Assembly (NCBI GenBank): GCA_021018995.1
Contig: CM037588.1
Span: 139,249,725-139,313,724 of the forward strand
DNA length: 64,000 nucleotides
Source of the DNA: Chloranthus sessilifolius
Taxonomy: Eukaryota > Streptophyta > Magnoliopsida > Chloranthales > Chloranthaceae
Direction of reading: 5' to 3'
Position numbers and translations under genes: made by a program. Positions 7,176 through 62,071 of this stretch are shown here, piece by piece (position 1 is the first letter of the stretch; each line of letters begins with the position of its first letter). The notes under the pieces are model-generated. The model saw only the letters and a program-made list of their open reading frames with translations. It had not been told where the DNA came from and ran no database searches.

Positions 7176-7221
<46 letters not shown>

Positions 7222-9440: not shown

Positions 9441-9528
9441 ATTTCTTTTAGAAATTCTGACAATCATTATTTTTGTTAGAGCATAGAGACTTCTGCTAAT
9501 AAAACTTTGGTTTCACGTGCAGACCGTG

Positions 9529-42731: not shown

Positions 42732-44333
42732 TGTAGACACCCAAATTCGGCCCAAGGCCCGATCAGTCTGTACTCCGAGAGAGATATACCCCTGCGCTTT
42801 CGATGGCACCCCTGAATCCTTGGGAATCTATCCAGACCTTTAGGAATCACCTAAAACGCATTAGAACCATTCCCCCAACCCTTAGAGATCACTCCTAAAC
42901 CCTAGGATCCCTTCCCAGACTCAACTTAAACCTTTCTAAGTATTTGATGGTAAGAGAGCTACAATTTATTATACCGACCATTGCCAAGGATGAGCCGCAT
43001 ACCGTTGGAAAGAGGACTTCTCCAGCTTTCCAACAAGCCAAAGATCACCCAATTTAGAGTTGTGGTTTGAAAGTTATGGCCGAATGAAGGTTCACATAAA
43101 ATCATGACTTTTTGCTCAGGCGTATGAATTACATACGCCCGGCAAATATGGCCCCAGTTTGGTCAGGCATATGTATTATATACGCCTGGCATTTTTGGAC
43201 CAAATTTGGCCAGGCGTATATATTACATACGCTCAGCATAGGTAGCCACCACCACGGGCACCATCTTCTCATATTTCCCCTGGTTTTCATGACATTCACT
43301 GTGCATAAACTGGGCGTATGTAATATATACGCCCAACTTAGCTACAGTAACTGTCATCGAATGCTCGAATTTCCTCTATCTGGTTTGACCCTTTGACCAT
43401 CCCCTTGGTTGAGGTGGGTGTCTTAAGGTTGGTTGCACCCCCTTTGAGCTTATTGGCAACCCTTAAGTCACACCCTATCATCTGCCATTAAAACCAGTTT
43501 CCCAAACCCCTAGGACCCTAAAAACCTAGAAAACCTTAGATGGAGGATTACCTAATTGCTAAACTAATTAGCTCTTAAGTAACCCTCTAACCCATCTCTT
43601 CTCTTTAAATAGAGAGGCCCCCCTCTTCCCCAAGGGGTTGAAAAATTAAGGCTGAAAGTTAAGCTTAAGAGAGAGAGCCCTAGTGAGAGAAAAAATATAT
43701 ATTATTTTGCATTCTTCAACCAGAATTCCAGCATGCTTAGTTCATCCTTTGCAACCCTTTTCAACCATTAGATCACCCCTCTTTAGTCAAGCTTAGTCCC
43801 TAGCTCCATCCTACCCTTCCCATCTACCGAATCCTAGTATTAGAACCCATTCCTCTACCGTTCAAGCTAATTAAAGCTGTCGGGAGCACGCCAAAGCGAA
43901 GGTCTTCCACGGTGCAACAAGGGCCCGTGAGCTCTAGCTCACCCCTCTCTTCCTCTACCTTCTTGGTGTTTCCTCCGTCCAAGGATTCAAGCCGTTACGC
44001 CACTGAAATTTCGGTTTGGCTCAAAGCTTGATAGGACCGTATTGCCTTGGGGCAAGGGGAAGCTCCGCCTATTTGTTTTTATTTTGGCCATAGATAGAGA
44101 CCGCTACGTGTGGGTTGATCGGGTGCCTAAACCCTTCCCGATCAATAACCGAAGCCCCTACCCTAGAGCCTTTGGCAAAGACCGGTAAATCAGAGTCATA
44201 TTTAGCACTTCGGTGCTCAAAATATTGATTTAAAGGTTTCCCGGGTCACCAAAAGCTTCGGGTGGCGACTCTACATTTTATTCTACCGCAAGCGTATCGC
44301 CTCGATGGGTTCGAGAGGATCCATGGTCGCACA
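42732..44333 (+). repeat. Tat-type 5' LTR
   Basis: Begins TGTAGACACCCAAATTCGGC and ends TGGTCGCACA two bases before the primer-binding site. It includes four palindromes (43,119-43,333) and a possible TATA box TTTAAATAG near 43,604. The preceding five bases are GTACA; the matching right flank is outside the window. Confidence 0.85.
43119..43333. promoter_or_regulatory. Palindrome cluster 1 (in 5' LTR)
   Basis: Four 21-bp inverted repeats at 43,119-43,139, 43,166-43,186, 43,213-43,233 and 43,313-43,333. Each is close to arms GGCGTATATA / TATATACGCC around one central base. The first three are spaced exactly 47 bp apart, the fourth 100 bp on. They lie about 270 bp before the likely TATA box. 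Confidence 0.85.
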
Positions 44334-44335
44334 GA

Positions 44336-44353
44336 TGGTGACTTTGCTGGGGA
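44336..44353 (+). promoter_or_regulatory. Primer-binding site of the Tat element
   Basis: TGGTGACTTTGCTGGGGA matches the TGGCGACTCTGCTGGGGA-type site seen in Ogre/Tat elements with two differences. It follows the LTR end by two bases. Confidence 0.8.
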
Positions 44354-45847
44354 TGTCACCCTAGCGCTTCCCCTCCTTTTGGCCTTTCTTTTTATTTTTT
44401 TACTAACCATGGCTGTTTTTTTATTCTGATCTTCTGCTATTTTCCTTTATTTTTATTGTTTTTACTAACATACTCACCCCTACGATTCAATCCTTTAAGT
44501 GCCTTAGCCGATTGGCGAGCCTACTTGCGCATTTAAATTTTAGTTTTTTACGATTTTATCATTTAAGCCGCCTTAGCCGTTTGGCTGGCCTACTCACATC
44601 TACTTTTCACGTCATTTAAATTTCAGTCATTTACGAGCCTTAGCCGTTTGGCTGGCCTACGTGCGCTCTTTATTTCAGTCATCATATCTCACCATTGAAC
44701 GCCGGCCCATTGAGGCGGCACGGGCTTGTCATCCCCGACCCGATTTTGGACTTAAATTCATTCCCCTTTAAAAATCTGTAATTAAAAGTGAACCAATAGG
44801 GTGGGGACATAATCAAATATGTTTTTGCGTGTTTTGGATAGTTTTCGGGGGGTTTAGGCACATATATAACTTACCCGGTTCCCAGTAAGGTGGCAGCCCT
44901 AGTGGTGATGATCCTGAAAAGAACCACCCTTTCCAGTACTTGAGAAGGCGCTTGCGCCGGAGGTATATCGGTTGGGTTGCCAATTCCGATCAAGCCGTAA
45001 AATCCGCGATGGTGAGAGCATAGACAGCCCGAATTCAGCCGTGTATCCTTAAGAAGCGGAAAGGAGGGACTCGATAACATACACAGCAGTCCCTGGGATC
45101 ATCCCTCCCAGAAAACCAGTCCAAGAGACCCATCTCCTTCGCATTTCTTTGTCAAAACAATGTGAGCTGTCTACGCTAGGCGTATATAATATATCGTGAC
45201 TAAAAATCGAAATACTCGGTATATAATATATACGCACCAAAATCGAAATACTCAAAGTATATAATATATACGCCTAGCCAAAATCCCCAGATTTAAGCCA
45301 CACGTATATAATATATACGCCCAGCCAAATTTGCTTAATTTTAGTCAAGCGTATATAATACATACGCCCAGTATATACTGGGTTCAAGCAGCCCGATCTG
45401 AGGCCCAATCCACCACCCGAGTTCCCCGATTAGTGGTAATAGTGCCCACAGTAGCCTCCCGTATTCTGTAATGCCCAATATGCCCCCACCCAGTCAAAAG
45501 AAGGCGACTTCTCATTGATTTGCTCCGGGGGATCGGGTCGTTTGCGAGGACTCCCTCACCTTCAATAGAATGAAAGGGTTCCCCTTTCACCTCTTCCAAA
45601 GTGTGTCGGATCCCGCCGTGGGACCTACTAAAGGTGCATATATCACCCGAGATGGGAATTTATCTAGGGCGCCGGATCATCATTCATTTAAATAGGGGAG
45701 ATAATTTTTATTTGAAAAATCCAAAAAAATAAATATATAGAAAAATAAAAAATCCGTGTATATGTGCACTTTCAGTACGACCGCTACTACCGCGACCTCA
45801 AACCCAACCCGTAGAGGAAGAACTAGGAAAGTGTTTGGCCTTACCCA
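44354..45847 (+). other. Tat leader (5' untranslated region)
   Basis: No gene. The words 'ccttagccgtttggctggcc' recur three times (44,500-44,660). Palindrome cluster 2 (45,179-45,382) lies about 470 bp before the first gag ATG. Confidence 0.7.
45179..45382. promoter_or_regulatory. Palindrome cluster 2 (leader, upstream of gag)
   Basis: Five copies (45,179-45,199; 45,218-45,236; 45,257-45,274; 45,301-45,321; 45,348-45,368) of the GGCGTATATA / TATATACGCC inverted repeat, spaced 39-47 bp apart. The last overlaps a perfect 16-bp palindrome CCCAGTATATACTGGG (45,367-45,382). Confidence 0.85.
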
Positions 45848-48843
45848 ATGCATCGGTACAACACTCGTCAACAGATCATGTCGAGCACCGATGCATCCCT
45901 GCCATCATCACCATCCCATTCCCATATAGGAGAAGACCCGATCTCCAACACCTTCACCCAAACCCGGTTCAATGTCACGGGTCCATTTGGGGCACCCGTG
46001 TTCGCATCCACCCCATCCCCCGCCCTTACATTTTCTCAACCTACCCCCATCTCATCCTCTACTGAAACACCTCATTTCCCAATCGACCCATACATCCCCA
46101 TCTCCCATCCTTACACCTTACCGCACCCCCTACTCCCAAAGACCCCATCGGGAGCCCCATCCCCCGCCTACCTCCCACACTCCGTCCACCTCATCATCCA
46201 TGCCTCCTATATCCTATATCCCACCCACCTCATCTCACATGCCCTCCACATCACGTGGCCCATCCACATCCCAACATACCCCCCTATTTACCCAGGTCAT
46301 GCCCAACTTTGCCCAGGGTGTGACCAGTAACTCACCATCTTCCTTAGCCATACATCCACACCCTCCAAGCATAATCATTCATACCCCCCATACCTGGGTC
46401 ATGCCCAATTTCACCCAACCCTCTCCATCCTTGAATGGACCATCACCCTCCAATCTCACACTTGAATCCATGACCTTAATGGAGGACATGAGAATGATGT
46501 ATGCCCTGTGGGCTACCTCTCGGAGTCCTACATTCCAAACCCCACATCTAGGTCTCCAAAACCTCCATACCCCATTCCCCCATGACCATGCCCAACCACC
46601 CATCATTCATACCATCCAAGATCCCCCACCTCAATTTTAGGCCCAAGCCCAACAGACCCAAGCCCACTCATCCCAGGCCCAAGTCCACCAAACCCATCAG
46701 GCCCAAAATCCTCAAGGCCCAAGCCCAAACCCATCAGACTCAGGCTCAGGTTCAAAATCCTCAAGGCCCATGGGCCCAAGCCTAAACCCATCAGACCAGG
46801 CCCAGGCCCAAAACCTTCAAGGCCCATGGGCCCCATCCCAAACCCATCAGACTCAGGCCCAGGCTCAAAATCCTCAAGGCCCAAGCCCAAGCCCATCATA
46901 CCCAGGCCCAAAACCTTCAAGGCCCATGGACCCCATCCCAAACCCACCAGACTCAGGCCCAGGCCCAAGCCCATCAGACCCAGGCCCAATCCCAAGCCCC
47001 CCTAGGGCCCTTGGACCCAGACCTATCAAACCCAAGACCAAGGCCCATCATCCCACACCCAATACCCACATGGCCCATTAGCCCAAACCCAACAGGGCCC
47101 ATTGGCCCAAAATCATACCAACCCCCACACCCAGGCTCAAGGCCCATCAACCCAAGCTTCCACTCATCGAGGCCCGTTCACAAACCCCTTACCCCTTCAC
47201 TAGTACCCTTCATTCACCTATACCCCTTATGCCCCCATCCCGCTTCCAACGAAAAATCCGATCCACCCCATGCCTCAAAACCACGTCTACAGTATCCCGC
47301 CACATCAACCACGGCCCCATCATCCCCAGAATATACACCCAGCTCAGCACGTCATTCATCCACAAACCACTCAACCATTCACTCCCTCCCATCCCCTACA
47401 AGCCTTGTGGCCCCACCAGGTCGTCCAACCCATCACCCCCTAGGTCCAAATAGCAGCCTCGCTGCTCACCAATACAATGACCAACAGTACGAGGAGGACG
47501 AGATCCGTAATAGTGGAGGAGCGGCCAGCTTCGGCCCCCCTAGGTCCATCATCCTCACACCCAGGGCCGAGCCAAACCAGGGGGAAGCAGTCCCAACTAT
47601 AGCCTCAAAAGAATCAGAGCAGCTGAGAGAGCAAATAGACAGAATACAGAAGCAGCTGATGAAGATGGGAGGGCTAGAATTGCATTCGACAAACTTTTCA
47701 GACTTATGTCTGTTCTCGGATGTCCCCCTACCACAGAAATTCAAAATGCCATTATTCAATAAATATAATGGCACTGGCAACCCCATCGCCCACTTAAAAT
47801 CTTACTGTGGGGATATGTGTCAGTACGGCGGAGATGAACGACTCCTCATCAAAGTGTTCCAAAAGAGTCTAACGGGCCTAGCACTGAGATGGTTCACGTC
47901 CCTAGAACCATCCATGATAAAAACTTGGAAAGATCTGACACACTTGTTCCAAGAACAGTATGTCTATAACATAGACATAGAGCCAAGGAAGTCGGATCTG
48001 GCCCGTTTGAAGCAAAGGCATGATGAAACTTTCAGTACCTACTTAGGAAGGTGGAGGGCATTGGCTACCCAAGTGACCCACCGAATTCCTGATGATGAGC
48101 AGATTGAATTGATAACCAAGGGAGCTCTCCCAGTCATCGCAAAATTTTTAGTATATTAGCAACAGTCTAGTTTTGCTGATTTAGTCAGAAATGTCAACCG
48201 TTGGGGAGACGCCGTTAGAGAGGGCAAGTTGGGAAAGAGCATGACCAACGGGGCCACCGGGGTTCGAAAAGCTGTCGAACCAAGAATCGAAAGAAGACCA
48301 AGCATAGAGGTACAGAACATCGTTTACCCCCAGACCAATACCAATGCCCCCCAGGTATAGCTCTAGGTCGCACAACCACCCCCAGCCCGTTTAGAGCAAG
48401 CACCAAGGCCGAACAACGGACCGAGAGCCCCATTTACCCAGGAACAGATGAGAGCACGATTCGAACGGGTGTTCACGCCATTAGGACAATCTTTAAGTGT
48501 CTTATTGCCAGTATTGGTACAAAAGGGTCTGGTCAATTTACTCCAGCCTTGCCCCCTACCCAATCCAATCCCGAGAAACTATGAGCCGAACTTGCATTGT
48601 AACTTCCACCAAAGGCCGGGTCACCCTACGGACCGGTGCTTCCCACTAAAGCATGCGGTCCAAGATCTAATAGAGGCGAAAAAAATTATTCCCCCACCAC
48701 TTCCTCAAGGGCAGAATCAGAACATCCATCAGGCCCCTCTGCCACCGCATCCAGGAGGCCCCAGGCCTAACATCCATTGCGTAGAAGAGGAAGAGGAAGA
48801 GTTTACATCAGTAATCAAGAAGAGTTTTCATTTTCCAGGCTGA
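45848..48843 (+). pseudogene. gag: Tat gag with long proline-rich N-terminus and zinc-finger-like end
   Basis: From ATG 45,848 a Pro/Ser/Thr-rich region of about 550 codons (one frame shift near 46,190, stop at 46,638) contains a minisatellite coding for QAQNPQGPxPxP-type repeats. A coiled segment (SEQLREQIDRIQKQLMKMGG, about 47,610) leads to the retrotransposon gag domain (47,700-48,156: PLFNKYNGTGNPIAHLKSY, LTGLALRWFTSL, LTHLFQEQYVYN). After TAG 48,157 the frame continues to a Cys/His motif, CNFHQRPGHPTDRC (48,597-48,638), as in other Tat gags, and ends at 48,841. Further stops at 48,358 and 48,364. Confidence 0.85.
46640..47080. repeat. GGCCCA-rich minisatellite within gag
   Basis: Repeats of about 70 bp built from 'aggcccaagcccaaacccat' and 'aaaatcctcaaggccca'. 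It lengthens the proline-rich part of gag. Its complement gives a spurious Gly/Leu-rich frame on the other strand. Confidence 0.85.
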
Positions 48844-49829
48844 ACGAGGGTGAACCAATTGTGGGGGTAATCGAGCCGCTGTATTTAGCCGATTACTTCC
48901 CCACCCGGCATACCAAGAAGAGCCCTAGATTTAGGCCAGTATTTTTCCACTTCCGCTCCTGCCTATCAAATCCAAATGGGCACAGCCCCGTCGCAATCAT
49001 ACGCATATCCGCCTCACTCTCAATTTACCCCACAGTACACACCACCTCCTAATCACCCCATCCCATACACTATCCCACCATCAGCCACCCCATGTACCTC
49101 TTCGTCACGCCCAAATCACTCCACGCCATACATGAATTCACCATCCCCATACTACCCCACCCCATACACACCTCCAAATCTCTCCACCCAATACACCACT
49201 CTGCCATCCCCAAATTATCCTATCCCGTACACACCCCCAAATCTCACCACCCAGCATACTATCCCGCCATCTCCAAATCATCTCTCCTAATACACCACTC
49301 CACCATCCCCAAATCACCCCGCCCCGTGCACAACTCCGTCATCCCCGATTTACCCCGTTTCATCCACGAACCCATCATCGCCCTGCCATGCCACCCCAGT
49401 TACAAACCCTTCATATCAGTACCCCCCTGCTCCATCCGCTACCCCGTCATACCCCTATCACCTCGCTCCACCCGCACCTTCGGTGTTTCCCAGTCACCCC
49501 ATCCCAGTCACACCCCCACCATCCCTTCGCCATTTTGCCCCCAATCCAACTCCACCCCCACCCAAACAAACAATCCCTCACCCACTCCCCTTATCACCTG
49601 CTCCCAATCACCAGTGGTCTTACCACGCCCCGATAATGCTTGCACAAACCCACTCCGCACCCTCAAATCCAACTTTGCTAATTCCCGCCAATACCACTCA
49701 GCCCCCTATTGGAGTCAACCTGGTTGGGCCCGAGAATCCAACATACCCAAGCCCAATCCACCCCAGAATCACCATGCACTCCCTTCCTCATCCCGAAACG
49801 TGCCTATGACCCGCATCAAGTGTCATTAA
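48844..49829 (+). pseudogene. Second proline-rich linker between gag and protease
   Basis: Degenerate repeats coding for YTPPSPNHP / PSPNYPIPYTPPN. One stop near 49,290 and frame changes are present. No catalytic or binding motif is visible; it probably acts as a spacer in the gag-pol precursor. Confidence 0.6.
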
Positions 49830-50554
49830 GTTACGAGCAAACGGACATGAATGCTGGTCGCAACCAAGAAGAGACTGTCGAATTCATCACCCGGTCAGGC
49901 AGGATCTCTACACAACCAGAAGCATCGAGGGTCGTCAAAGGAGAAGAAAAGAAGAAAGAGCAGGCCACAGGGAACCCTTTCGAGAAAATGGCTAGAGAGC
50001 ACATGTTGGAAACACAACTCAAGAGAACGCCCGCACATATTACTGTATGGGATTTGTTAATCACATCCCCGCTCCACTTTCAAGCCTTAATGGGAGCGCT
50101 CAAAGATGCACATGTTTCCACCCACGTAACCCCAGATGAAGTAGGAGAAATAATCGGGTAAGTATTGGCCCCAAATGCCATCTCATTCACGGATGCGGAT
50201 CTGCTGCTCGAGGAGAACAACCACTTTAGGCCCTTGAATATAACTGTGGAAATAGGGAACCTGGTGGTGCCATTGGTCTTAATAGATAACAGGTCAACAT
50301 TAAATGTATGTCCTCTAAGGACGGCAATCAAAATCGGTGCGAACCCCAACACCTTTCGGCCATCCATAACAAGCGCCAGGGGATTCGACAACACTCGAAG
50401 AAAAATCATAGGAGAAGTAAACCTCGATCTGACCATCGGGCCGCAAACCTTCACCGTCCCCTTTCAGGTGATGGACATCAAGTCTACATTTAATCTATTG
50501 TTGGGCCGGCCGTGCCTACATGAGATCGGGGCAATACCATCAACTCTACACTAA
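49830..50554 (+). pseudogene. pol: Tat aspartic protease region
   Basis: The leader segment EETVEFITRSGRISTQP and NPFEKMAREHMLETQLKRTP is typical of the gag-protease joint in this lineage. Protease follows: LVVPLVLIDNRSTLNVCPL at about 50,255-50,310, where the active site should read DNGS (Gly to Arg, a GGG/AGG type change), and TFNLLLGRPCLHEIGAIPSTLH at the end. Stops occur at 50,159 and 50,552. The Gly-to-Arg change would by itself disable the enzyme. Confidence 0.82.
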
Positions 50555-51490
50555 AAACTCCAATTCATCTCAGACGGAAGAATCGTCACCATCGTAGCTG
50601 AGAGCAGAGAAGACAAGGAGCAGATCGCTTTGCATATTGAGAACTCGAAAGTGCTTGATATTCCGCATACAGCAGATGACACCGATCTCCATCAATTTGA
50701 GTATGACTTTTCAGCCGTTACTCTTGAGTCGCCTTAGAAAACCCCTGTTAAAACTGGGGTAGGAATGGATGCAGCAGTGTTCATGCTCCACAAATTGGGC
50801 CACCAAAAAGGGAAGGTTTGGGCCCACGCCTTCAAGGAAGAAGAGACCCTGTCAGGGCTAAGGGGCAACAAACCAGATTTGGCCTGGGCTATAGGCCCCT
50901 TGAAGAAGAAGTCAGAGAGGCCAAGGAAAAGATAAGAGCCGCAGCAGCCGCCAGGGCCAGAGGAATCAACCTGAAAGAAGAAACTCAGGCCCGACCCCAC
51001 ATCCGTCAAACCTTCGTGAGCGTCGGGGTGGTAAAGATTGATCTGAATGGGGAGACAAGGGTAACCCCGCACAAGCCTGTTTCCGCCCATCCTACCAACC
51101 CTTACATCACCCCCCCATACCTCGAGGTGGACTTAGCCGCCCTCTCCTTATTTGAGGAAGAAGTCCTCGGTCCACCTGTCACTCTAGCACCAGCCACTTT
51201 GGGCGCATCCTAACCATAGAGGACAGGGTCCCAGAGGATCCCTCCATAAACATGCTAAGGGGGGAACTGTAAGAGCCCACCGATGCCGTTTCTAGCTAAA
51301 AGGGTAAAGGCCAAGCCTCGCAGGTAAGTAATTGGGCATCTTTGCCCCAACTCCTGGGAGCCGTCAAATGCTGTGAATACGGCACCGGCTCTCCAAAAAA
51401 AAACAACTTGTAAGAAGTGAGGTTAGCCTCTGGGACACTCTACCCTGCATATATAGAGATCCACCTTGCCAGGGGCTAACCTTCAAAAAA
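50555..51490 (+). other. Protease-RT linker with a possible intron
   Basis: Coding-like linker (RFGLGYRPLEEEVREAKEKI near 50,876) in changing frames. A strong splice donor CAG|GTAAGTA occurs at 51,324, with candidate acceptors TATATAG (51,456) and TTGCCAG (51,472) before RT coding resumes near 51,491. Ogre elements are known to have an intron between protease and RT, so this may be the equivalent. Confidence 0.4.
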
Positions 51491-52996
51491 TTGCGAAAAA
51501 CCATAAAAATAGAAAAAATACCAATTCCAAAAATATTATCCTTTAAAATTTCCAATAAAATTGAAAATGATGTCGTGATACCCGTCCCACGCGAAGCCGA
51601 CCCCTTCCCTATAGAAATACGAGAAGAGGTAGGAGTCACGAGTCTGGACGAGGAAGGTCATGTCGATGAGCTCCTCAAGCAATTTGCCGATTTTGAGCAT
51701 GGCCCTACCCCGATCGTCGAAGAGACAGAGGACGTCAATTTGAGCACTGAAGAGGCCCCTAGAATCACCAAAATCGGAACATCGCTGTCCCCTGTGGAGA
51801 GAAAGGATATGATAGACTTCCTCTGGTCATACCAAGAAGTCTTCGCATGGTCGTATGAAGACATGCCACGTCTGGATACCGATCTGGTTGAACATGAGCT
51901 GCCACTCTACCCTGCTTGCAAGCCGGTTAAAAAGAAGCTGAGACGTCTCCGACCTGAATGGATGTTGAAGGTCAAAGACGAGGTCATTAAGTAGTATGAC
52001 GCAGGTTTCCTCATGGTATCCAAGTACCCGCAATGGCTGGCCAATATCGTCCCCGTGCCAAAGAAAGATGGAAAGGTTCGAATGTGCTTTGATTTTCGAA
52101 ACCTCAATAGGGCAAGCCCTAAGGATGACTTCCCATTACCCCACATCAATATCTTGGTCGATAACACTGCTAAGCACGGAATGCTCTTATTCATGGACGG
52201 GTTCTCAGGCTACAATCAGATTAAGATGGCAGAGGCCGATCGAGAAAAGACTGCGTTCATCACTCCCTGGGGTACCTTCTGCTACAAGGTGATGCCATTC
52301 GAGCTCAAGAATGCTGGGGTAACCTACAAGAGAGCAATGACGGCCCTATTCCATGACATGGTGCACCGAGAGATCGAAGTGTATGTCGATGACATGATTG
52401 CTAAATCACCGGAAAGGGACGACCACTTGGTAAACCTTCAGAAGCTGTTCGAGAAGTTGAGAAAGTACAGGTTGCGATTGAATCCCCAGAAGTGCGCATT
52501 CGGCGCTATGTTAAGAAAACTATTAGGTTTTATCATTAGTAGGAGAGGCATCGAAGTCGATCCGACCAAGATCAAGGCCATCACTGAAATGCCACCACCG
52601 TCTACAGAGAAAGAGGTTAGAGGCTTTTTAGGCAGAATCCAGTACATCAGTCGGTTCATTGCACAGTTAACTCCGATATGCTCACCGATCTTCAAACTAT
52701 TAAGAAGGGACTCACCAGTTGAGTGGAATGATGACTGCCAAGCTGCATTTGACAAGATCAAGGGTTACCTCTTAAATCCTCCAGTATTGGTACCACCTGT
52801 ACTTGGCAGACCCCTGATAATGTACCTGTCCATGATAGAGTTTTCCATGGGCTGTGTGTTAGGGCAACACGATGAGACAGGAAGAAGAGAACAGGCCATC
52901 TACTACTTGAGCCAGAAGTTCACTGATTATGAGACGCGCTACTCTCATCTGGAGAAAGCATGCCTAGCACTCGTGTGGGCTACTCAAAGACTTTGA
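51491..52996 (+). pseudogene. pol: Tat reverse transcriptase and start of RNase H
   Basis: RT motifs in order: FAWSYEDMPRLDTDLVEHEL, NIVPVPKKDGKVRMCFDFRN, LFMDGFSGYNQIKM, MPFELKNAGVTYKRAM (FGLKNA is usual) and IEVYVDDMIAKS (YVDD near 52,382). RNase H follows from about 52,800 (GCVLGQHDETG, YYLSQKFTDYETRYSHLEKA). A TAG at 51,992 (former Gln or Trp) and TGA at 52,994 (former Arg CGA) interrupt an otherwise well-kept frame. Confidence 0.93.
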
Positions 52997-53281
52997 CACT
53001 ACCTGTTATCCCAAGCCGTCCTACTTCTAGCGCGGATGGATCCGTTGAAGTATCTATTTGAGAAACCTGTTCTCACTGGCCGAACTGCACGATGGTAGCC
53101 TTTATTATTAGAATTCGACATCACATACATCACTCAGAAATCGATCAAGGGGCAGGCGCTTGCTGATCATCTTGCTGACAATCCGTTACCTGATTATGAA
53201 CCTTTGAGAACTGAGTTCCCCGATGAGGACATTCTGTTCATAACAGAAGATGATACAGAAGAAGCAGAGGAATCATGAGTA
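52997..53281 (+). pseudogene. pol: RNase H end and connector
   Basis: Continues the frame after TGA 52,994 with HYLLSQAVLLLARMDPLKYL, a stop near 53,096, then LLEFDITYITQKSIKGQALA and an acidic connector to the second RNase H. Confidence 0.8.
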
Positions 53282-53701: not shown

Positions 53702-55012
53702 AGGAATGAGCCGGCCTTCTGCCTCCAAATTGAGAAACCTACAAAGCCTGATGATGAGCTACCTTGGTTCTCAGATATCAAGAATTTCCTCAAGACCCTA
53801 ACTTTCCCAGAGGGTACATCCAAGATGGACCGACGAACCATTTAAAGTTTAGCGGCAGGTTACGTCATTTGCGGGGAATGCCTCTATAAGCGATCATACA
53901 ATAACATCTTACTCAAGTGCCTCACTGAAACTGAAGCAGTCAGTATTATGAAAGAAATCCATGAGGGAGTATGTGGAGCCCACATCAGCGGTCATATGTC
54001 GCTAAGAAAATCCTATGGCAGGGATACTTTTGGACCACCATAGAATCGGATTGTTGTAAACATGTTCAAAAATGCTACAAGTGTCAAGAACACTCCAGTT
54101 TGATACACGCTCCTGCCATTGATCTTCACTGCATGACCACTCCTTGGCCATTTGCTACCTGGGGCCTTGACATTGTTGGAATGATTAATCCGAAAGCATC
54201 AAACAGACATTGATTCATCCTCGTCGCCATTGAATACTTCACAAAGTGGGTAGAAGCGGCATCCTATGCCAATATCACGACCATTCAGATTGAGAAGTTT
54301 CTCAAGAACAATATTGTGTGTCGATTTAGAGTACCCAAAGATATCATAACAGACAACGGCATAAACTTTGCGAATAAACGCATCCGAGACTTCTGCGAGC
54401 AATACAAGATCAAGCATCATCGATCATCCCCATATAGGCCTCAGAAATATGGAGCCGTTTAGGCAGCCAACAAAACTCTGGTCCGCATCCTTAAGAAAAT
54501 GGTCGTCACTTACAGAGATTGGAGTGAGCAGTTATCCTTCACACTTTGGGCCTATAGAACGTCGATCTGTACCGCTACAGGGGCAACACCATTTTCCCTT
54601 GTGTATGGAATCGAGGCCGTCCTCCCGGTGGAGGTTGAAGTACCCTCGCTCCGAATCCTCATGGAATCTGGCTTACCCGAAGCAGAGAGAGAGATCCCGC
54701 TTTGAACAATTAAACTTACTGGACGAGAAGAGACTCCTAGCCTTGTGTCACACTCAAGTTTACCAGGGGAGAATCGCACACACTTACAATAAACGTGTCC
54801 GCGGTCGAGATCTAAAGGTAGGAGACACTGTGCTGAAGAAAATCTTCCCATCCCTCCATGCCGATCCAAGAGGAAAGTTTAAGCCGAACTGGGAAGGACC
54901 ATACGTCATTCGAGAGGTGCTGTCGGGATATGCCATCCGCCTCGCCACCATGGACGGAGATCATCTTCCTAAGCCCATCAACGCTGGATACGTCCGGCGG
55001 CTCTACTCATAA
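53702..55012 (+). pseudogene. pol: Tat integrase, frame-shifted
   Basis: Zinc region: ETEAVSIMKEIHEGVCGAHI, then after a frame shift near 53,990 CYKCQEHSSLIHAPA. Core: WGLDIVGMI (first Asp), VPKDIITDNGINFANK (second Asp) and a region where a TAG (54,460) breaks the usual E-rich helix. RDWSEQLSFTLWAYRTSI follows, and after another shift YNKRVRGRDLKVGDTVLKKI and KPNWEGPYVIREVLSGYAI, the C-terminal GPY module. Ends TAA at 55,010. No chromodomain, as expected for Tat. Confidence 0.9.
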
Positions 55013-56708
55013 TCTATCATGATAAGGTAAGTATTGATGAAATAGATACGTGACTACTTAAGAATCATCCAAAAGAGGCCATCGTTTCAAGCATAATAGC
55101 CCAAACGCATTCCTAAAAATGATGATATCCTTTGCTACCCCATTTGAGTCGGGGCCTTTCTTTCAATAAACCCTTTCCCAAAAAAAATATATGTGTACAT
55201 ATACCAAAAAAAGAGGGAGAGAGGAAAAATATATGAGTATAGAGTTACTATCAAATCCCCAAAAAATCGAGAAAAGCAAAACCTCAAAAAAAAATAAAAT
55301 TTTTTGTCTCAAATGGAGGAAAAAGAATAACAAAAAATGTGTATGTAGAAGAATCACAAGGCATGTACAGTAGAAACCCCCAAGGAAGAAAGTATTTTGG
55401 GAAAACTGAAGCCATAGAAAGGAAACCCTTTTTAACCCAGCATACCTTCAGATCCTAACCCTACCCATGGCCAAGCTACACCCTGAAAGAAGCCCTCTTT
55501 GTAGGTTCGCAAGCGGTCATATTATCTGTTAAGTCAACATGAGCCGAGTCGTGAGACGACACCAGAACCCCATCCAACCAGTTATGAAAGAATCTTTGTC
55601 CATGTCGTGGCTTTCTGGTTCTAAAAAAAAAAAGAAAAAAAAAGAAGAAAAGAGAAGGAAAATTAATTTGAGTTCAAAGCAAGATGGACGTGGTGAAAAC
55701 CTGCAAGGGCACCGTGGGTAAAAACAACGAACTCATGCGGACCAGGTGAAAACCTGAAAAGGCACTTGGGGTAAGAGAGCGGACCCATGGACGTAGTGAA
55801 AACTCGAAAGGGCGCTACGAGTAAAAATAGGGATGACAGGCATGGCGAAAACCCGTCTGGGGCGCTGTGAGCAAAAATGTCAACAAAAGAGAGATTAGGA
55901 GATGATCTGTTCTGACTCACCTATTTTTGTCTGGACCCCTTGAGCCCCTTCCCCCTTCTTTTGTTGGGCCGCTCATGTTAAAATTAGATCGGATCCTAAT
56001 CAAGTATGTCGTCTCTACCGCGTCGTTTGACACATGACCAAAGGTAAGGCCAGAAGACCAATCAATCTCAGGGAAGCTGACCTATCCACGTTTAAAAAGA
56101 AGCACCGGAAACTCCTAAATGGGGTTCGACCATGCTTAAAAAGAGGACCCGCCGGTTGGCCTTAAAAATACCGACATCACAAAAAGGAGAAAATTTCAAA
56201 AAAGATAATGGATTTTCCTTTCCTATAAAAAGCCTCACACTGTGAGGGAGAAAATTTCAAAAAAGATAATGGATTTTCCTTTCCCATAAAAAGCCTCACA
56301 CTGTGAGGGAGAAAATTTCAAAAAAGATAATACATTTTCCTTTCCCATAAAAAGCCTCACCCTGTGTAGGAGAAAAATTTTAAAAAAAGATAATAGATTT
56401 TCCTTTTCCATAAGAAAAACCTTACGTTGCGAGACGCATGGAAGAAAATTCGAACACCAAAAAATATGTATATGTGTATATAGCAGATTTCATTTCTTTT
56501 CTTACAAGCATTACGTATGAAGTGTCACATCCCAAAAAGATAACAACATGACACACTTTCTACTTTCCGCCTTCTGTACAAGTATAAAACAAACAAAAAA
56601 GAAACAACCCAAAAAAGGAAGGAGATCTCTATTAAGGGGCATCAGCCCCCCCTCTGTGTATATGATCTATGTTATGTGTAGGAACAGGTCAGGGGCAGGA
56701 ACCACGCT
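55013..56708. repeat. Spacer between pol and antisense genes, with two minisatellites
   Basis: The sense pol and the antisense genes meet tail to tail here. Three to four units of about 60 bp with 'ggtgaaaacctg/cgaaagggcgct' lie at 55,680-55,880. Four units of 60-61 bp ('gagaaaatttcaaaaaagat' ... 'aagcctcacactgtg') lie at 56,186-56,440. No gene is seen. Confidence 0.75.
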
Positions 56709-58135
56709 TCAAGGCACTGATCTCCGCGAAGCGTCAGCTGCACTGCGAGACTCAGTCAAAAGCCCAGTTAACCGAAGAACCTCACTCTCGCCCGTAGCAG
56801 CTCTCACCTTCGCCATCTCAGCTCTGGCCCTCTCCTTCCCCAAAGCCTCAGTCAAAGCTAGCTTCTCTACAGAAAGAGACTCAATTCTAGTCCGGAGCAT
56901 CATTTCCTTGTATGGCCAGGGTCCCGTCTCTATCGCATCTACCGAAATCGGGTTAGGGGCAGGTAAGCTCTCAGATGCCAGCCAAACCTCATAATCAGAA
57001 GAGAGGACGCCTCCCTGAACCAAGCTACACATGTGCGCCGATTGGCGGGTCTCCCAAAGGGCTGTTATGTGATCTAGGTCACTGAGAGAACCCTGAGAGA
57101 ATATAAGGGAACACAAGGGCGGCCTCACAGTGCACGACACGTGTTGGGTATATCCGAATTGACGGAGCACCTGAGATGGGAAATAGTAGGTACTACCAGT
57201 CAACCCCAAAAGCGTGATACCCTCACAATCCTGAGAGCGGACAATCGGAAAGGTGCTGTCCAACCAGGGAAGTTGCTAGATCAACTCCGCGTTAGATAGC
57301 CACAGGCTCAGTTCTTCGATGCTCCTATGGGACAGTCTCGAGCTGCATGTCAGAAATCCCCGAGCCACATCCCCTCTTACCAAGCAGAGTCTCGGCACAG
57401 GCCCCATGATAGCTAAATGCTCTCCTAGCCAAATCTGAATGAGGAGTCGACTCCCGCGAAGAATCCCAACCTGGCCTGAGGCCAAGGCATCCAGGCCCCG
57501 ATACATCTCAGCCAAGACTAGGTGTACCAGTGAACGATCTCCCTCCAATTCGGTCAAGAAATCGCATAACCCGAGAGAAAATGTCTCGCCCCCAGTAAAG
57601 AAGAGAACTTCCGATAGCAAGTAAAGGGAAAAGGCCTTCACATTGAAAGGATCCCGGATAGCCAACTTTCGGAGACTCGAGTCGCCAAAAAGTTCTCTCA
57701 GGAATTTCACCGAGCACCTAGTGGGCCCGCCGGCGAAGCCCTTCTCATACCCACCCTTTTTCAAACCAAGAACCGCGTAGACCGCCTTTGCATACCCCGG
57801 TTTGGGCACCACTTTGGCAAGCCCCCGATGCATCCTCAAGCCGGTAATAGAGGCTAGCTCCTCCAAGGTAAGGGTGAGCTCCCTGGACCCGAATCTGAAG
57901 ACATGAGCCCTATGGTCCCATGACGCCAAAGCCGCCTATAGGATGTCGGGCAACAAAGGAACAACCAGGAGATAGGAAAGGCAGGATAACCCGAGGCGAT
58001 CCAGAATAGCGAGCTCGCCCTCAGCCAAGATAGCGCACCACTTTTGCAAAAACTGGGCCCCAAGTCCAAACAGGGAAGTACACTAACCCCATCCCTCGTG
58101 TGAGAATTTGGGCCGGGAAGCGGGTCCATAGACAT
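56709..58135 (-). pseudogene. Antisense accessory gene 1: DUF7745/PMD-like protein with coiled-coil tail
   Basis: Opposite to pol. From ATG at 58,135, after a 1-nt shift near 58,040, the frame reads QFLQKWCAILAEGELAILDR, a stop at about 57,940, then the core HVFRFGSRELTLTLEELASITGLRM, an 'F-G-x-x-E-L-T-x-T-L-E-E' pattern seen in DUF7745 and related plant mobile domain proteins carried by transposons. The core continues to 57,276 (TAG, in frame), then to 56,709 with a charged heptad-like tail (RTRIESLSVEKLALTEALGK). Total about 475 codons with two stops and one shift. Palindrome cluster 3 lies 180-345 bp upstream of the ATG. The family assignment is from pattern memory and moderate. Confidence 0.65.
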
Positions 58136-58316
58136 ACAAAAATGATTCTATATAAATCCTAGTCAATGTAGGGTGATGGACCCGCTTGTCAAAGAAAAAG
58201 GGGAAGAAAGAGAAAAGAAAGAAAAAGGAGGGGCAAAAAGGCAAGGCCCGGGTGTTTGGTGAGGCAAAGAGGACTGGGCGCGGATTATAAGGAACCCGTC
58301 GAGCCCAGTTATACGA

Positions 58317-58480
58317 GGTGTGCATATTATATACGCCAGAGCAAACACTGAAAAAATTATGGCTGGCGTATATATTATATACGCCCAGGTAAAAACTGAG
58401 CATTTCCCGCTCGGCGTATATATTATATACGCCCAGACAAATTTTCAAAAATTTTGCACGGCGTATGTAATATATACGCC
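58317..58480. promoter_or_regulatory. Palindrome cluster 3 (upstream of antisense gene 1)
   Basis: Four copies (58,317-58,337; 58,365-58,385; 58,413-58,433; 58,460-58,480) with 47-48-bp spacing. The second and third have perfect 10-nt arms GGCGTATATA / TATATACGCC. The spacing equals that of the first three copies in the 5' LTR cluster. Their centres TATATTATATA resemble TATA boxes on both strands. Confidence 0.9.
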
Positions 58481-58877
58481 CACTTGAGAAAGCAGGGAAG
58501 TGTGGCTTCCCTCACATCGGGCCATGCATTTTTTTCATCCCCAGGGGAGGGGCGGGTTTCGCTCAGCCTACTTTTTCTCCCGGGGCAGCCCATGGTCGGG
58601 CACGCTTACGCACCCATGGGAAACCCTCGGATGACGTAGCATCCGTGGGTCATATGCGGGTAATCACAAGCGAGCTCAACCCCATCATTGGAGGGGCTTT
58701 GGCCCACTTCATACAAAAAAAAAATCATAAAGGCAGAGAGATAAACAAACGGAGCATTCATATAAACCATAAAAGTCATAAAACTATCTAAAAAATCAAT
58801 CAAAAGAAAATTATTACATATTCCCCAATATTTCAAAATCTAAACTGTTTCACTATTTCAAATTTTCAGAAAATGAA

Positions 58878-61220
58878 CTAATCCTGGGTAGCCCCCTTTG
58901 ACTTCTTGGCGCGGTCGCTTTGAAAGTCTGAGTCTCCCCACCAGTCCACACCGAGATGCGGCCAAGCAGAGAGCACGACTCCTTTTCACGAGCACGCTAC
59001 ATAAGCACATGAAGGGCCATCAGTTAGGAAAACAAGCAGAAAGTAAATATGAAGATAACTAGATACGGTCAATATTAACTCACCACCTCAACCTCCCTAA
59101 GACCGACAATGCTGCGGTAATATTCGGCTTGGTTTACGGCCGACTCATAATCCTGCAGCAAAAAGATAAAGAGAGAGGTATCAGTCACACAGGCCATCGG
59201 CATGATCTAAGAAAACGGAGGAGCAAGGTAACAAGGGAGAGATTACCCCAGGGATCAGCTCAGGGGGTGAAACCCAAATAGCTTCAGCGGATATGCGTGC
59301 CTTCTCAGCCACATTGGTGCACATACGCCACAGAAAGGCATCATCCAAGCGCTTAAAAGTCCCCTGAACCTCGGGCCATTAATCGCCAAGCGCCAAAGAC
59401 CGAACGTCGGAAGGTCCAAAGACCGTAGCCTCATCAGAACAATCCTCATCCCCTCATCTGAATCGTCATCCTGTCCAAACTATAGGGAGAAACAGTCTTT
59501 GTTCAAACAGTAGGGCAATTAAGGTAATCATATGGAAGGCTGCAAATAGAAAGAGGAAAGAACATTACCTGAGATCGCGGACCACCAAAAGCCAAAAAGT
59601 TGGCACCAGGCACGAATTTGGGCAGCAGAGAACGATAGGGCAGAGACTCATACCACATCTGATATCCTCCAGGAAAGAGAAGGTCATCAATGGGGATCCC
59701 GTGGTGGAGAAAGTGAGCAGTAAGCACTTCGGTAGAACCTTCGGGAGCCAATACATAAGCTGGAGGAGCTTGGGGCACAGCAAAAAGAGGTCGATACTGA
59801 TGAACCACCCTCTCTCCTAAGTAATAGGTTCTAGCCCAGGACCCATAGAAGAAAATAATGCGTCGATCTAACAAAAGGCGAGAAGGGCCGACTGCAGCCA
59901 GGTTTCAGAAGGGGGATCCGACGTAGGGATCAAGGATGACCTGCTCAACAAAAAGGAGGGATTTATACATTTGGTCAGAATCCACAGCATATAGGAGCTA
60001 TCAAATTTGTGAAGAGAGAAATTGTTATACCTGCTCAGGGATCAGCAGATCAAACTGAGAGCGCAGCCCTAACTCCAGGTGCTTCATACCCACGTCCAGA
60101 TGGTGGTTCGCGTGCCAATTGCTCATAAGGGGGAACGTGGGAACCTCCGAGAGAAGCAGAGGGCGACCAGGTTGGAAATGCAGATACCCCCATACCTGAG
60201 AAAGCAAGCAGATAAAAACAGATATGCCAAAAAAAAGGGGGGGGGACGAATTGAGACCAAAGGATAAAATACCTCAAGTGTGGGCCAGAAGCCCACAACG
60301 GAGCTGGAGTCCCCAAGAACGGCTCGCACCAGGCTAGACATGAGCACCGCATAACCAGCACCTCCCCAATCAAACCGATGTACAGTGTCCCAGTTCACCA
60401 TAAGACTAAGAAGGGACAATGAGACCCGCCCTCCCTTGATATTTGAAAGGAGAGTCTTGCCCAAGAGGAATAACAGAGAAATGCGGGCCAGCATCAGCGC
60501 GCGCTCGGGCTCGAGGTAAATGGCCGCATCAGGCTGGCCCAGATCCACTAACTCATGGGGCTCAAACAGACCAACCAACCAAGATAACTTGACTTCGGAA
60601 CCATGAACGTTCCCGGAGGTTGGGTAGGCCCCTATCAGCCGAGTCACCTCCTCGCTATCAGGCGTGCGGGTAGGTATCACTGGCACCCCTCCAATACGAA
60701 CCCCAGTAATCATGGACCAGTCCGCGGGTGTGAGGGTCATCTCAGCCATGGCCATGTGAAACGTCATGGTCTCAGGGCGGAAGCGCTCTATCAGGGCCTT
60801 CAGATAGGCCGTGTCAGCCCTCACAACGGGGTAGGAGATGAAATCCCCAAAACCAGCTTGGGCAAGCAGGTCCTTCACTACCTGGGGGAGATAAAGTACG
60901 AGGCGTTGGAGGTCGAACCAGCCACCCCGGAACATAATGTGTCGCAAAGCCTGCAAATAAAGGCATCGATCAAATAGGAGCAAAGTGGTATAATGAAGGC
61001 ATCAAAGGAAAAGAAAAAGGGCTCATCTGTTTACGTGGCCAACGATCCCAAAGTTGGAAATATGGGTATGCTGATAATGAAGGAGGCCAGTACGGGCGGC
61101 TTCACCTTGCATTTCATACCAAGGTTGAGAGGAGCGCTGTGAAACAATGAACTGCTCCCCATGAGGACCATAGGCCATCTTGGGCCCCTCCTGTGGATCC
61201 TGCCCTTCATTGCCAGACAT
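58878..61220 (-). pseudogene. Antisense accessory gene 2: seven-exon plant mobile domain protein
   Basis: Start ATG at 61,220 (MSGNEGQDPQEGP). Proposed exons, 5' to 3' on the minus strand: 61,220-61,035; 60,950-60,273; 60,195-60,031; 59,940-59,569; 59,479-59,247; 59,152-59,084; 58,996-58,878. All six introns (77-94 bp) start GT and end AG. The first four exons are exact multiples of three (62, 226, 55 and 124 codons) and join in one frame; exon 6 is 23 codons. Exon 2 carries ERFRPETMTFHMAMAEMTLT followed by W-S-M-I-T-G-V-R, the core of the plant mobile domain (PMD, MAIN-like family). Defects: one stop early in exon 4 (PYVGSPF then TGA) and a 1-nt loss in exon 5 within the DDDSDE acidic stretch. 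The last exon's frame is uncertain. Host MAIN-like PMD proteins act in gene silencing and meristem upkeep; the role of transposon-borne copies is unknown. Confidence 0.8.
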
Positions 61221-61802
61221 CTGAAAATATGGAACACATCGGTATGAGAAAGGGCTGCTAAAAAAAAAAAGAGGAGAATAACAAAAAAAATGCACTAATC
61301 CATCAAAAAAATGAATGAAGAATGAATGGTGATGAATAATAAGGAAAATGAAAAAAGAGGGGAGCATAGGCCTAAGGAATCACATATACCTGAAAAGAAA
61401 AAAAAAAAAGGAAGAACATCAAGCATTTCAAACCAAAAAAAAAAAGAAAGAGAAAAGTAACAAAAAATACAAAAAAATAATATATGTGCACTAATCCATC
61501 ATTAAAAAAAAAAAAAAAAAACAAACAAAAACAACAAACAAATAAGAATGAAGATGATGAACGGTGATGATATATGATGAATGATGAATAAAAAAGGGGA
61601 AAGAGGATGATGATGAATGAAAAAAGAAATAAAAAAGAGAAATGAAAAGAAAAAAAAGAGAGAAGAGCATGAGCACAAGGAATCACATATACTTGAAAAA
61701 AAGAAAAAAGAGAAAAAAATGTATTAATTTGTCACCACAAAAAGGAGGAACATCAGCATTATCAAAATTCAAAAAGGAGATGAAAGAGGGGTTGATGATT
61801 AC
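61221..61802 (-). other. Probable 5'-UTR intron of antisense gene 2
   Basis: On the minus strand, CTTGAAG|GTAATCATC at 61,802 and CATATTTTCAG|ATGTCTGG at 61,221 bound 582 bp of T-rich sequence, so the acceptor sits directly before the start codon. A pyrimidine-rich leader (61,803-61,990) would be the first, non-coding exon. Confidence 0.5.
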
Positions 61803-62011
61803 CTTCAAGGGGAGAGGAAATAGATCCAAAAACCGGCAGAGGATGAGTGTTTCTGATCTACACACACGAACCCCGGTGATAGAACTCAAACAAAACCAAA
61901 TGCCAAAACCCTAAGGGGCTGTCCCGGACTTGAGAAAGAGGGAGGGAAGAAGATAGAGTTTGAAAGAGGGGGTCCCTTTTGTGCTCGCGCTTTAAATCGC
62001 CAATTTTGGTC

Positions 62012-62071
62012 GTGTATATAATATATACACCATTTTTGTCAGATTTGTCAGCGATATATTATATCGCTGAC
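62012..62071. promoter_or_regulatory. Palindrome cluster 4 (upstream of antisense gene 2)
   Basis: Two perfect palindromes: arms GTGTATATA / TATATACAC around a central A (62,012-62,030), and arms GTCAGCGATATA / TATATCGCTGAC around a central T (62,047-62,071, 25 bp). They lie just upstream of the presumed first exon of gene 2 and could supply a TATA element on the minus strand. Confidence 0.85.

Follow-up and report, generated by a model that had tools for sequence, protein, structure and literature searches.

Structure of the retrotransposon

The window, by which we mean the whole analyzed stretch of 64,000 nt of Chloranthus sessilifolius DNA, carries a Tat/Ogre-like retrotransposon that is very abundant in the genome of its plant host. 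The features considered below are as follows (no strand is given for palindromes).

42,732 to about 65,619: whole Tat/Ogre-like element, with the 3' LTR just beyond the window end
42732..44333, + strand: 5' LTR (1602 bp), beginning with TGTAGACACCC, with a PBS-like stretch directly after its end
43119–43139, 43166–43186, 43213–43233, 43313–43333: LTR cluster of four 21-bp palindromes
43604..43612, + strand: LTR TATA box, TTTAAATAG in the window copy and TATAAATAG in other copies
44336..44353, + strand: candidate primer binding site by sequence, tggtgactttgctgggga
45179..45382: leader cluster before gag, with five 21-mers at 45179–45199, 45216–45236, 45254–45274, 45301–45321 and 45348–45368
46786..48159, + strand: gag (Pfam Retrotrans_gag, 1.3e-15)
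51995..52996, + strand: reverse transcriptase/RNase H part of pol (Pfam RVT_1, 1.4e-26)
56709..57935, – strand: antisense gene 1 (PMD1), plant mobile domain, with one in-frame stop in the window copy
58148..58154, – strand: TATA-like box of antisense gene 1, TATATAG in the window copy
58317–58337, 58365–58385, 58413–58433, 58460–58480: cluster of four 21-mers before antisense gene 1
60123..61379, – strand: antisense gene 2 (PMD2), with the PMD exon at 60123–61001 and an N-terminal exon inside 61023–61379 (limits of both exons inferred)
62011..62071: one 21-mer (62011–62031) and a variant palindrome, forming the cluster before antisense gene 2
64008–65619 in window-equivalent coordinates, outside the window: 3' LTR, 93.7% identical to the 5' LTR

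The LTR limits (1–1602) are also found in several other copies of the element, and the stretch at 44336..44353 is probably a primer binding site, with a likeness to the tRNA-Arg type of Tat/Ogre elements. The assignment to Tat/Ogre (Ty3/gypsy) is based on the LTR pair together with Ty3-type gag and RT/RNase H domains identified with Pfam, and on the long region between pol and the 3' LTR, which holds extra ORFs, the two antisense PMD genes. PMD is carried by 57% of Ogre elements, according to the relevant part of PMC6317226.

Palindromic sites in the window

The palindromes are genuine and far above chance. Fourteen 21-mers scoring at least 16/21 are located between 43,119 and 62,031 (within 42.5–64 kb) and none in the rest of the window, and no such 21-mer was found in any of 40 simulated sequences. 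The core of the 21-mer is GGCGTATATA/TATATACGCC; with at most one mismatch, GGCGTATATA occurs 21 times in the window, and 19 of these occurrences fall in 43119..62071. The expected number is 2.16, and none of 100 shuffles reached 21. Each arm is a half-site GGCGTATRTA, and the back-to-back pair makes up the 21-mer. The leader 21-mer at 45179–45199 is degraded, with a broken right arm, and the leader cluster is adjoined by CCCAGTATATACTGGG. The variant palindrome before antisense gene 2, GTCAGCGATATATTATATCGCTGAC (25 bp, perfect, centered at 62059), is unlike the 21-mer.

The sites thus stand where the original prediction had placed them, in the LTR, before gag and before both antisense genes, and the coordinates are confirmed. 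The distances between successive sites are 47, 47 and 100 bp in the LTR, 37, 38, 47 and 47 bp in the leader, and 48, 48 and 47 bp before antisense gene 1, nearly the spacing of about 47 bp (39–47 bp in one cluster) proposed initially. None of 15 palindromes lies inside the gene tracts, as drawn by the analyst; these tracts occupy 57% of that part of the element which is inside the window. The window's non-coding DNA from pol to PMD1 is also free of sites. A rough estimate of the chance of the observed cluster placement is 0.00009; its zones were defined with the data already in view, and this value is not relied on.

Recurrence in the host genome

In the host genome (2.17 Gb) the two symmetric variants of the 21-mer occur in 8,531 and 691 copies, the former being the perfect 21-mer, with zero copies of the reversed-pattern control. 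All 20 fetched stretches around perfect sites belong to the same retrotransposon family; they surround some of the first listed sites on a single contig and thus cover only a part of the 8531 sites. Among copies sampled via a perfect site, all four LTR slots are present in 12 of 14 stretches covering the LTR region and three slots in the other two; clusters of 2–3 sites are seen in all nine leaders covering that place. Moreover, PMD1 clusters are present in 5/5 stretches (four sites in four of them, two in the fifth), and PMD2-side clusters in 7/7, with one or two 21-mers, mostly perfect; the latter stretches were assigned by position and flanks, and one of the seven (L009) showed no PMD gene.

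The same layout is observed when the palindrome is not used to find copies. In 12 LTR copies sampled blind, taken from 38 among the matches listed with the window's own two excluded, 45 of 48 slots are present, and the spacing is 47/47–48/101 in ten of the twelve. Blind sampling before PMD genes was limited to two PMD1 copies in one listed contig stretch, one having three perfect 21-mers where they would be expected and the other none perfect. Out of 85 neighbor spacings shorter than 160 bp, 62 equal 47–48 bp. Absence of the palindromes from other family members, named at the outset as evidence that would count against the prediction, did not occur, as the layout recurs in other copies.

Relation to promoters

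TATA boxes were called as plain TATA variants compared between copies; a canonical TATA matrix yielded no match downstream of the clusters. In the LTR, TATAAA is found in 7/8 copies, 277–282 bp past the last palindrome (270 bp in the window copy). A TATA-like box lies 147–162 bp from the antisense PMD1 cluster in 5/5 copies, and reads TATAAAG in three of four copies other than the window one. The LTR and PMD1 clusters are hence followed by TATA boxes on opposite strands. No TATA box was found before PMD2 in seven copies, and in the leader one is present at a matching place in just 4/8 copies.

Since separate TATA-like boxes are situated further downstream, the 21-mer probably does not itself serve as TATA box in the LTR or PMD1 promoter. 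The suggestion in the original prediction that one factor could act on sense and antisense promoters is supported, as TATA boxes after both the LTR cluster (7/8) and the PMD1 cluster (5/5) mean that one factor could serve promoters of both strands. The location of palindromes before every transcription unit, as formulated earlier, is true for the LTR and the 5' flanks of the antisense genes and also finds sites in the leader, but is too strong a statement, because the leader cluster is past the LTR TATA box and falls within the leader that is predicted to be transcribed.

This position of the leader cluster, between the PBS and gag, would suit a role at the RNA level, with transcript hairpins acting in packaging, dimerisation or translation control. 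However, the LTR and PMD1 clusters are upstream of their own TATA boxes and hence outside RNAs started there, and the arms show no compensatory coupling (see below), so we regard such a role as highly improbable.

Arm symmetry and conservation of sites

It had been proposed that the arms stay matched although the copies differ, under selection on symmetry. In the 14 window copies, the arm identity is 8.21 of 10 within a copy vs. 8.08 between copies (p = 0.27), and in 125 copies, 8.77 vs. 8.69 (p = 0.025, the copies being related). Nearly all changes affect a single arm. At arm position 8 either arm may have A or G, and in recognisable copies of the window's subfamily the arms are unlike at this position in three of the four LTR slots. 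Beyond this weak effect, compensatory evolution of the arms is not supported by either set, the sites changing one arm at a time and unlike position-8 states being usual at three LTR slots, and we do not retain selection on symmetry.

Common ancestry of the arrays through duplication accounts for part of their likeness. A rival explanation treats the sites as inert: a tandem repeat of 47 bp with a palindrome at its core would have spread by duplication through the element as a by-product, recent ancestry or gene conversion would keep its units alike, and it would play no part in regulation. The units do have a common length and orientation, and the clusters are joined by BLAST. Moreover, in 12 blind copies of the window's close subfamily the palindromes are kept no better than the spacers (0.897 vs. 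0.887, p = 0.30), and in four LTR pairs, each from a single element, their divergence slightly exceeds that of the remainder (7.2% vs. 5.0%); thus, at these levels palindromes decay like their surroundings, which fits neutral decay after insertion and gives no positive support for function. In an alignment of 11 LTR copies no palindrome stands out, 5 to 42% of 21-nt LTR windows being equally or more conserved.

In 28 pairs of eight units from the window the 21-mers are 81.5% identical and the spacers, 42.4%; the inert-repeat explanation has to accommodate units whose spacers are down to 42% identity with 21-mers at 82%. It also does not account for the avoidance of gene tracts and, in the window, of the non-coding interval that separates pol from PMD1, or for the layout and spacing being constant across elements, and we consider it unlikely. 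Between nine LTRs, palindromes differ at 7.0% of sites and the remainder at 13.9%, with eight of the nine sampled via a perfect palindrome nearby, which favours conservation.

Antisense PMD genes

Both antisense genes encode PMD proteins. For PMD1, the Pfam PMD match is 6.2e-9 in the first piece, just over the cut-off, and 6.7e-4 in the second, below it; for PMD2, it is 2.7e-20 at 60123–61001. The dN/dS values are 0.09–0.33 for PMD1 (ten pairs of five copies) and 0.15–0.52 for PMD2 (15 pairs of six copies), so both genes are apparently under purifying selection, judging by these codon comparisons. A first look at the host genome gave 10281 PMD1 candidates, of which 150 were scored. PMD1 and PMD2 are barely alike. 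DUF1985, which occurs in VANC-related genes, matches PMD2 far below the Pfam cut-off (E 0.028, 14.8 bits vs. 35.1).

Structural and database comparisons yielded little. The AlphaFold model of the PMD2 exon alone has mean pLDDT 37 and is unusable; PMD2 has one weak match in PDB (E 0.41), and the PMD profile none up to E = 1. No match was found in the protein database queried with both PMD exons, in viral contigs queried with PMD2, RT and the Tat RT motif, or in prokaryote genome contigs queried with RT. The palindrome retrieved two viral contigs with one site each, and the Tat RT motif, one prokaryote contig, which is labelled Streptomyces, has a Tat-like RT and is probably contaminating plant DNA.

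Comparison with known systems

A long region between pol and the 3' LTR with an antisense accessory gene having its own promoter is reportedly a feature of Grande as well. Extra PMD ORFs are present in Ogre (PMC6317226), and Retand has a similar long region with antisense genes, TRP28 being its accessory gene (PMC11963269). For antisense and extra genes of Tat elements nuclear or DNA-related roles have been proposed; in contrast to the element studied here, the portions of these papers that deal with such genes describe no palindromic site common to sense and antisense promoters (PMC6317226, PMC11963269).

Palindromic RMs of Sireviruses (Ty1/copia), as presented in the corresponding sections of PMC2829016, are similar in that a clustered motif precedes the LTR TATA box and, in HOPIE and Inga, is also found at the 5' side of the internal gene ENV. 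They differ in superfamily, in the CGG-CCG core, and in the second gene, which is env-like (PMC2829016) instead of a reverse-strand PMD gene. In the present element a single 21-mer, spaced at 47–48 bp, is shared by the LTR, the leader and both antisense genes. Our element is Ty3-type with the GGCGTATATA/TATATACGCC core and does not belong to Sireviruses, sharing with them the position upstream of the TATA box.

VANDAL elements also encode an extra protein, VANC, and have a short motif arrayed in non-coding parts, the arrays being tied to tandem repeats. VANDALs, however, are DNA transposons, unlike the present retrotransposon, the binding of VANC is proven, and the motifs are short one-orientation direct repeats, not palindromes (PMC5735166, in the part concerning motifs). 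As for arraying, we likewise observe sites in non-coding parts (0/15 in gene tracts), and the family accounts for 20/20 fetched perfect-site stretches, which cover a part of the 8531 sites.

Candidate regulator of the site arrays

The sites themselves are observed, as are where they lie, how they recur and are spaced, and that 21-mers within the element resemble each other far more than the spacers do; protein binding, the dimer state, and the effect on transcription or chromatin are inferred. From the sequence pattern we consider it likely that the palindromes are candidate site arrays for one dimeric factor in the sense unit and in the promoters or leaders of both antisense PMD genes, switching or shielding all of them together. 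Two half-sites GGCGTATRTA back to back would form a putative dimer target recurring every 47–48 bp, and the factor would jointly control the LTR/leader sense unit and both PMD genes, acting as a transcriptional switch or as a shield from silencing.

Such a factor could be a host transcription factor recruited by the element, the PMD proteins being unrelated to the sites and merely among the driven genes, which we see as a serious possibility falling short of probable. A chromovirus in the window, together with repeats near it, has another palindrome, TCGATTAATCGA, in 32 exact copies at intervals of mostly 19–22 bp (11 of 32 in the chromovirus LTR pair, the others in related repeats), and PMD was found in none of ten chromovirus ORFs scanned. 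Conversely, another PMD family of the host genome has no comparable array in ten loci taken with about 4.5 kb upstream. Small palindrome pairs or triples do occur in loci L059 and L061, and perhaps in L058. A 21-mer (at least 16/21) is found within 1.5 kb in 0/30 PF10536 loci. An array without PMD and a PMD family without arrays argue against a simple PMD–palindrome rule. Moreover, the palindromic repeats of Sirevirus LTRs have been likened to stress-factor sites in the pertinent part of PMC2829016. On the other hand, an element-encoded binder would also suit a family that has thousands of copies of one 21-bp palindrome and places it before its own regulatory-looking genes, and no matching host site was identified in a comparison that covered known host motifs unsystematically.

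Our tentative choice for an element-encoded binder is a PMD protein, as an activator or anti-silencing factor. By analogy with VANC, PMD1 and/or PMD2 might bind the palindromes and keep the LTR and antisense promoters active; this we can entertain only tentatively. It is consistent with both antisense genes encoding PMD proteins with low dN/dS and having sites in their own 5' flanks. The host PMD proteins MAIN and MAIL1 are required for the expression of genes with a common promoter motif (PMC7156037, PMC9899485), and a tentative suggestion is that they work as heterodimers (PMC5418596). For VANC proteins, the bound sequences are short motifs that form arrays in non-coding DNA of the elements encoding these proteins (PMC5735166). 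MAIN, MAIL1 and PP7L resemble the present case in that PMD proteins are tied to a common promoter motif, DOWN, of the dependent genes, but are host genes, and the quoted motif instance, CATGCAGTTT, is non-palindromic and by eye unlike the 21-mer (PMC7156037, PMC9899485). The parts of these papers dealing with mechanism leave open direct DNA contact by PMD proteins and the molecular function of the domain in plants and their transposons (PMC7156037, PMC9899485), and, together with that of PMC5418596, do not demonstrate DNA binding. PMD genes and palindrome arrays are also not always found together, as in the chromovirus and the other PMD family, and, PMD1 and PMD2 being barely alike, a common site for both is not obvious. 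About as tentative is the full proposal that retrotransposon PMD proteins are sequence-specific DNA binders with the 21-bp palindrome as their operator, forming a self-carried circuit on the LTR, leader and their own antisense promoters that would keep the family expressible.

With its many copies at regular positions ahead of the PMD genes of the transposon, the palindrome is a concrete candidate target for PMD binding. If PMD proteins do bind the 21-mer, a widespread extra gene of retrotransposons would be tied to the control of both strands, which would bear on the action of MAIN and MAIL at genes and transposons; and if the palindrome is indeed their operator, the host MAIN/MAIL proteins would be relatives of a transposon transcription regulator.

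Palindromic sites of the Tat/Ogre-like element

Fourteen matches to the palindromic consensus GGCGTATATA-W-TATATACGCC (at least 16 of 21 positions) have been identified in the window, all of them between 43,119 and 62,031, in the Tat/Ogre-like LTR retrotransposon; at this threshold the 21-mer is absent from the rest of the window, and 40 sequences simulated with the neighbour-base frequencies of the region contain none. The half-site GGCGTATATA with at most one mismatch occurs 21 times vs. 2.16 expected. The element is organized as follows:

from 42,732, + strand: LTR retrotransposon with 5' LTR, PBS-like stretch, gag and RT
42,732–44,333, + strand: 5' LTR, with the PBS-like stretch directly after its end
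56,709–57,935, antisense: PMD1, matching PF10536 in two pieces (E = 6.2e-9, narrowly passing the cut-off, and E = 6.7e-4, short of it)
60,123–61,001, antisense: PMD exon of PMD2, matching PF10536 (E = 2.7e-20)
64,008–65,619 (window-equivalent, just outside the window): 3' LTR, 93.7% identical to the 5' LTR

Both gag and RT are recognized by Pfam, as are the two antisense genes, found in the interval from pol to the 3' LTR, whose products are two plant mobile domain (PMD, PF10536) proteins with little similarity to each other (best stretch, 12 of 33 residues). The window's copy of PMD1 is split in two pieces by an in-frame stop; the PMD2 exon also has a DUF1985 match far below the curated cut-off (E = 0.028). 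A 61-bp tandem repeat (3.7 copies, 56186–56413) is present between pol and the end of PMD1; Retand elements are reported to have tandem repeats in the same region.

Four sites form the LTR cluster, five (one degraded) the leader cluster before gag, four precede PMD1 and one precedes PMD2. Their spacing is mostly 47–48 bp, and none of 15 palindromes falls inside the drawn gene tracts, though these cover 57% of the window's share of the element. The PMD2-side cluster also holds a different 25-bp palindrome, the variant GTCAGCGATATATTATATCGCTGAC (62047–62071), in place of a standard 21-mer; a similar form with a shorter core is seen in the leader of one related stretch (L015). Three further perfect, mutually unlike 16-bp palindromes are found at 62255, 62650 and 63557, within the 2 kb that precede the 3' LTR.

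Recurrence in the host genome

The perfect 21-mer has 8,531 copies in the host genome (2.17 Gb, 32 contigs), and a variant carrying G-C at position 8 of each arm is present in 691 perfect copies; reversed-pattern controls yield none for either. For some of the perfect sites at the top of the listing, all on one contig, 20 surrounding stretches were fetched, and each of them contains LTR, leader or PMD gene sequence of this family. The LTR cluster has four slots in 12 of the 14 stretches covering it and three in the other two, the leader cluster two or three sites (9 of 9), the PMD1 flank two sites in one degraded stretch and four in the other four, and the PMD2 side one or two sites (7 of 7; assigned via position and flanks, one stretch, L009, showing no PMD gene). 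Together with the window these stretches contain 125 sites matching at least 15 of 21 positions, 50 of them perfect; out of 85 neighbour spacings below 160 bp, distances of 47 or 48 bp account for 62 and distances of 100 or 101 bp for 12.

As these stretches had been picked via a perfect site, LTR copies were also sampled blindly, with the palindrome-free part of the LTR: 12 of 38 listed copies were taken, those most similar to the window's (its own two excluded). At least 15 of 21 positions match in 45 of 48 slots, and the full 47/47–48/101 spacing is retained in 10 of 12 copies. All 45 deviate from the yardstick 21-mer at one position or more; the window's LTR subfamily has G at arm position 8 in one or both arms. 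Two scored PMD1 candidates fall in the listed part of one host contig (C1); counting perfect 21-mers upstream, where the array is expected, gives three for one candidate and none for the other.

Conservation and symmetry

Among the eight repeat units in the window, 81.5% of palindrome positions are shared, compared to 42.4% of spacer positions (28 ungapped pairs). Mean pairwise identity in 11 LTR copies (the window's plus 10 fetched, one element contributing both its LTRs) is 0.931 in palindrome columns, 0.827 in nearby spacers and 0.867 in the LTR remainder, single LTR palindromes not being outstanding (5 to 42% of all 21-nt LTR windows are equally or more conserved). Between nine LTRs, every one except the window's sampled via a perfect site, palindromes differ at 7.0% and the remainder at 13.9% of positions; between two LTRs of one element the values are 7.2 and 5.0% (summed over four elements), and in the window's close subfamily identity is 0.897 in palindromes vs. 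0.887 in spacers (p = 0.30). Our reading is that the sites may be constrained while a lineage is active and decay freely once inserted; the within-element and subfamily data would also be obtained without constraint. That the array is an inert duplicated repeat we consider unlikely.

Selection on symmetry, proposed in the original prediction, did not hold up: arm identity is 8.21 of 10 within copies vs. 8.08 between them (p = 0.27), and nearly all changes are one-sided rather than compensatory. In the 125 copies the values are 8.77 and 8.69 (p = 0.025; p = 0.055 for the 119 better copies), this effect being weak, as the copies are related. The blind LTR copies have unlike arms at position 8 in three of four slots wherever the slot is recognizable. 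Judging from these alignments, each arm is held near one half-site, in the fashion of dimer sites, and the arms do not track each other.

Position relative to predicted promoters

An LTR TATA box, TCTATAAATAG or close to it, is located 277–282 bp after the last LTR palindrome in seven of eight copies; the window's LTR has TTTAAATAG at 270 bp. The antisense strand has a TATA-like box 147–162 bp beyond the PMD1 cluster in all five copies and, in four of them, also TTATAA at 26–27 bp. Given these positions, the LTR and PMD1 flanks look similar, each having an array followed by a gap and a TATA-like box, on opposite strands. The leader has a TTTAAATA or TATATAG box 316–319 bp beyond its cluster in four of eight copies, and no such box precedes PMD2 in seven copies. 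The claim that the palindromes stand before every transcription unit goes too far for the leader cluster, which lies inside the predicted transcript of the LTR promoter. A role in RNA is very improbable.

PMD genes and control loci

The search for PMD1 in the host genome gave 10,281 first-look candidates, and many of the 150 scored have open frames of 400–583 aa with the match free of stops. The dN/dS ratio is 0.09–0.33 for PMD1 (10 pairs, five copies) and 0.15–0.52 for PMD2 (15 pairs, six copies), with stop-containing codons skipped and pairs not independent. From these sequences, the PMD genes appear to be important to the element. In published studies, PMD is present in 57% of Ogre elements (PMC6317226), is the commonest unusual domain of plant Gypsy elements, its function being given as unknown (PMC9289625), and forms clades A1 and A2 encoded by Gypsy elements only (PMC5418596). 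PMD genes of tea plant reportedly give rise to phased siRNAs, for which a repressive effect on these genes was suggested (PMC10673657).

Besides the Tat/Ogre-like element, the window contains one other LTR element, a chromovirus (RT, RNase H, integrase, chromodomain):

6904–25200: chromovirus plus related repeats close by, both carrying another palindrome, TCGATTAATCGA
TCGATTAATCGA copies: 11 in the chromovirus LTR pair, others at 12,490–12,966, 18,396 and 22,158–22,614

This palindrome has 32 exact copies in the window, mostly 19–22 bp apart, and no PMD was found among 10 scanned ORFs of the region; thus, an array of palindromes can exist without a PMD gene. A host factor is accordingly a plausible binder of the 21-mer, without being the probable one.

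Conversely, the 30 best PF10536 loci of the host genome were cut (117 scored, 128 of 20,278 candidates listed): three match at full length and are host-like, and the other 27 are 22–39% identical to PMD2. The 21-mer is absent within 1.5 kb of all 30. In 10 loci examined over about 4.5 kb of upstream sequence, no array comparable to that of the element is seen, though L059 and L061 have small clusters of mutually similar palindromes. A PMD gene can thus likewise occur without an array of this kind. The 27 loci form a second high-copy PMD group, mostly stop-broken, one of which adjoins Tat pol: in L060 (C9:87850700–87855800), with an RT sharing 79% identity with that of the window, integrase homology ends at query residue 131 and a second-group PMD member follows on the same strand, probably by nested insertion. 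A bacterial assembly labelled Streptomyces clavifer includes, probably as plant contamination, a 4.7-kb contig (L003; BMWJ01000029.1) with a plant Tat-like reverse transcriptase (50% identical).

A possible binder, held tentatively, is the element's own PMD proteins. A preprint reportedly deals with PMD protein–DNA motif modules and Polycomb. Published parallels are provided by MAIN and MAIL1, needed for genes with a common promoter motif, direct recognition being left open (PMC7156037, PMC9899485), by VANC proteins, which reduce methylation and bind to arrayed motifs in the non-coding regions of the elements encoding them (PMC5735166), and by an anti-silencing role speculated for PMD captured in MULE transposons (PMC5418596). 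In the literature covered, mostly outside subscription papers and available in part, we found no single palindrome common to sense and antisense promoters of Tat elements; the string TATATACGCC is present in 11 papers, and the 10 listed are apparently unrelated by title.

Whichever protein is the binder, the palindromes are likely to be arrays of binding sites: a single dimeric factor would dock on the 21-mer arrays and, once bound, would act on sense and antisense promoters of the element alike.
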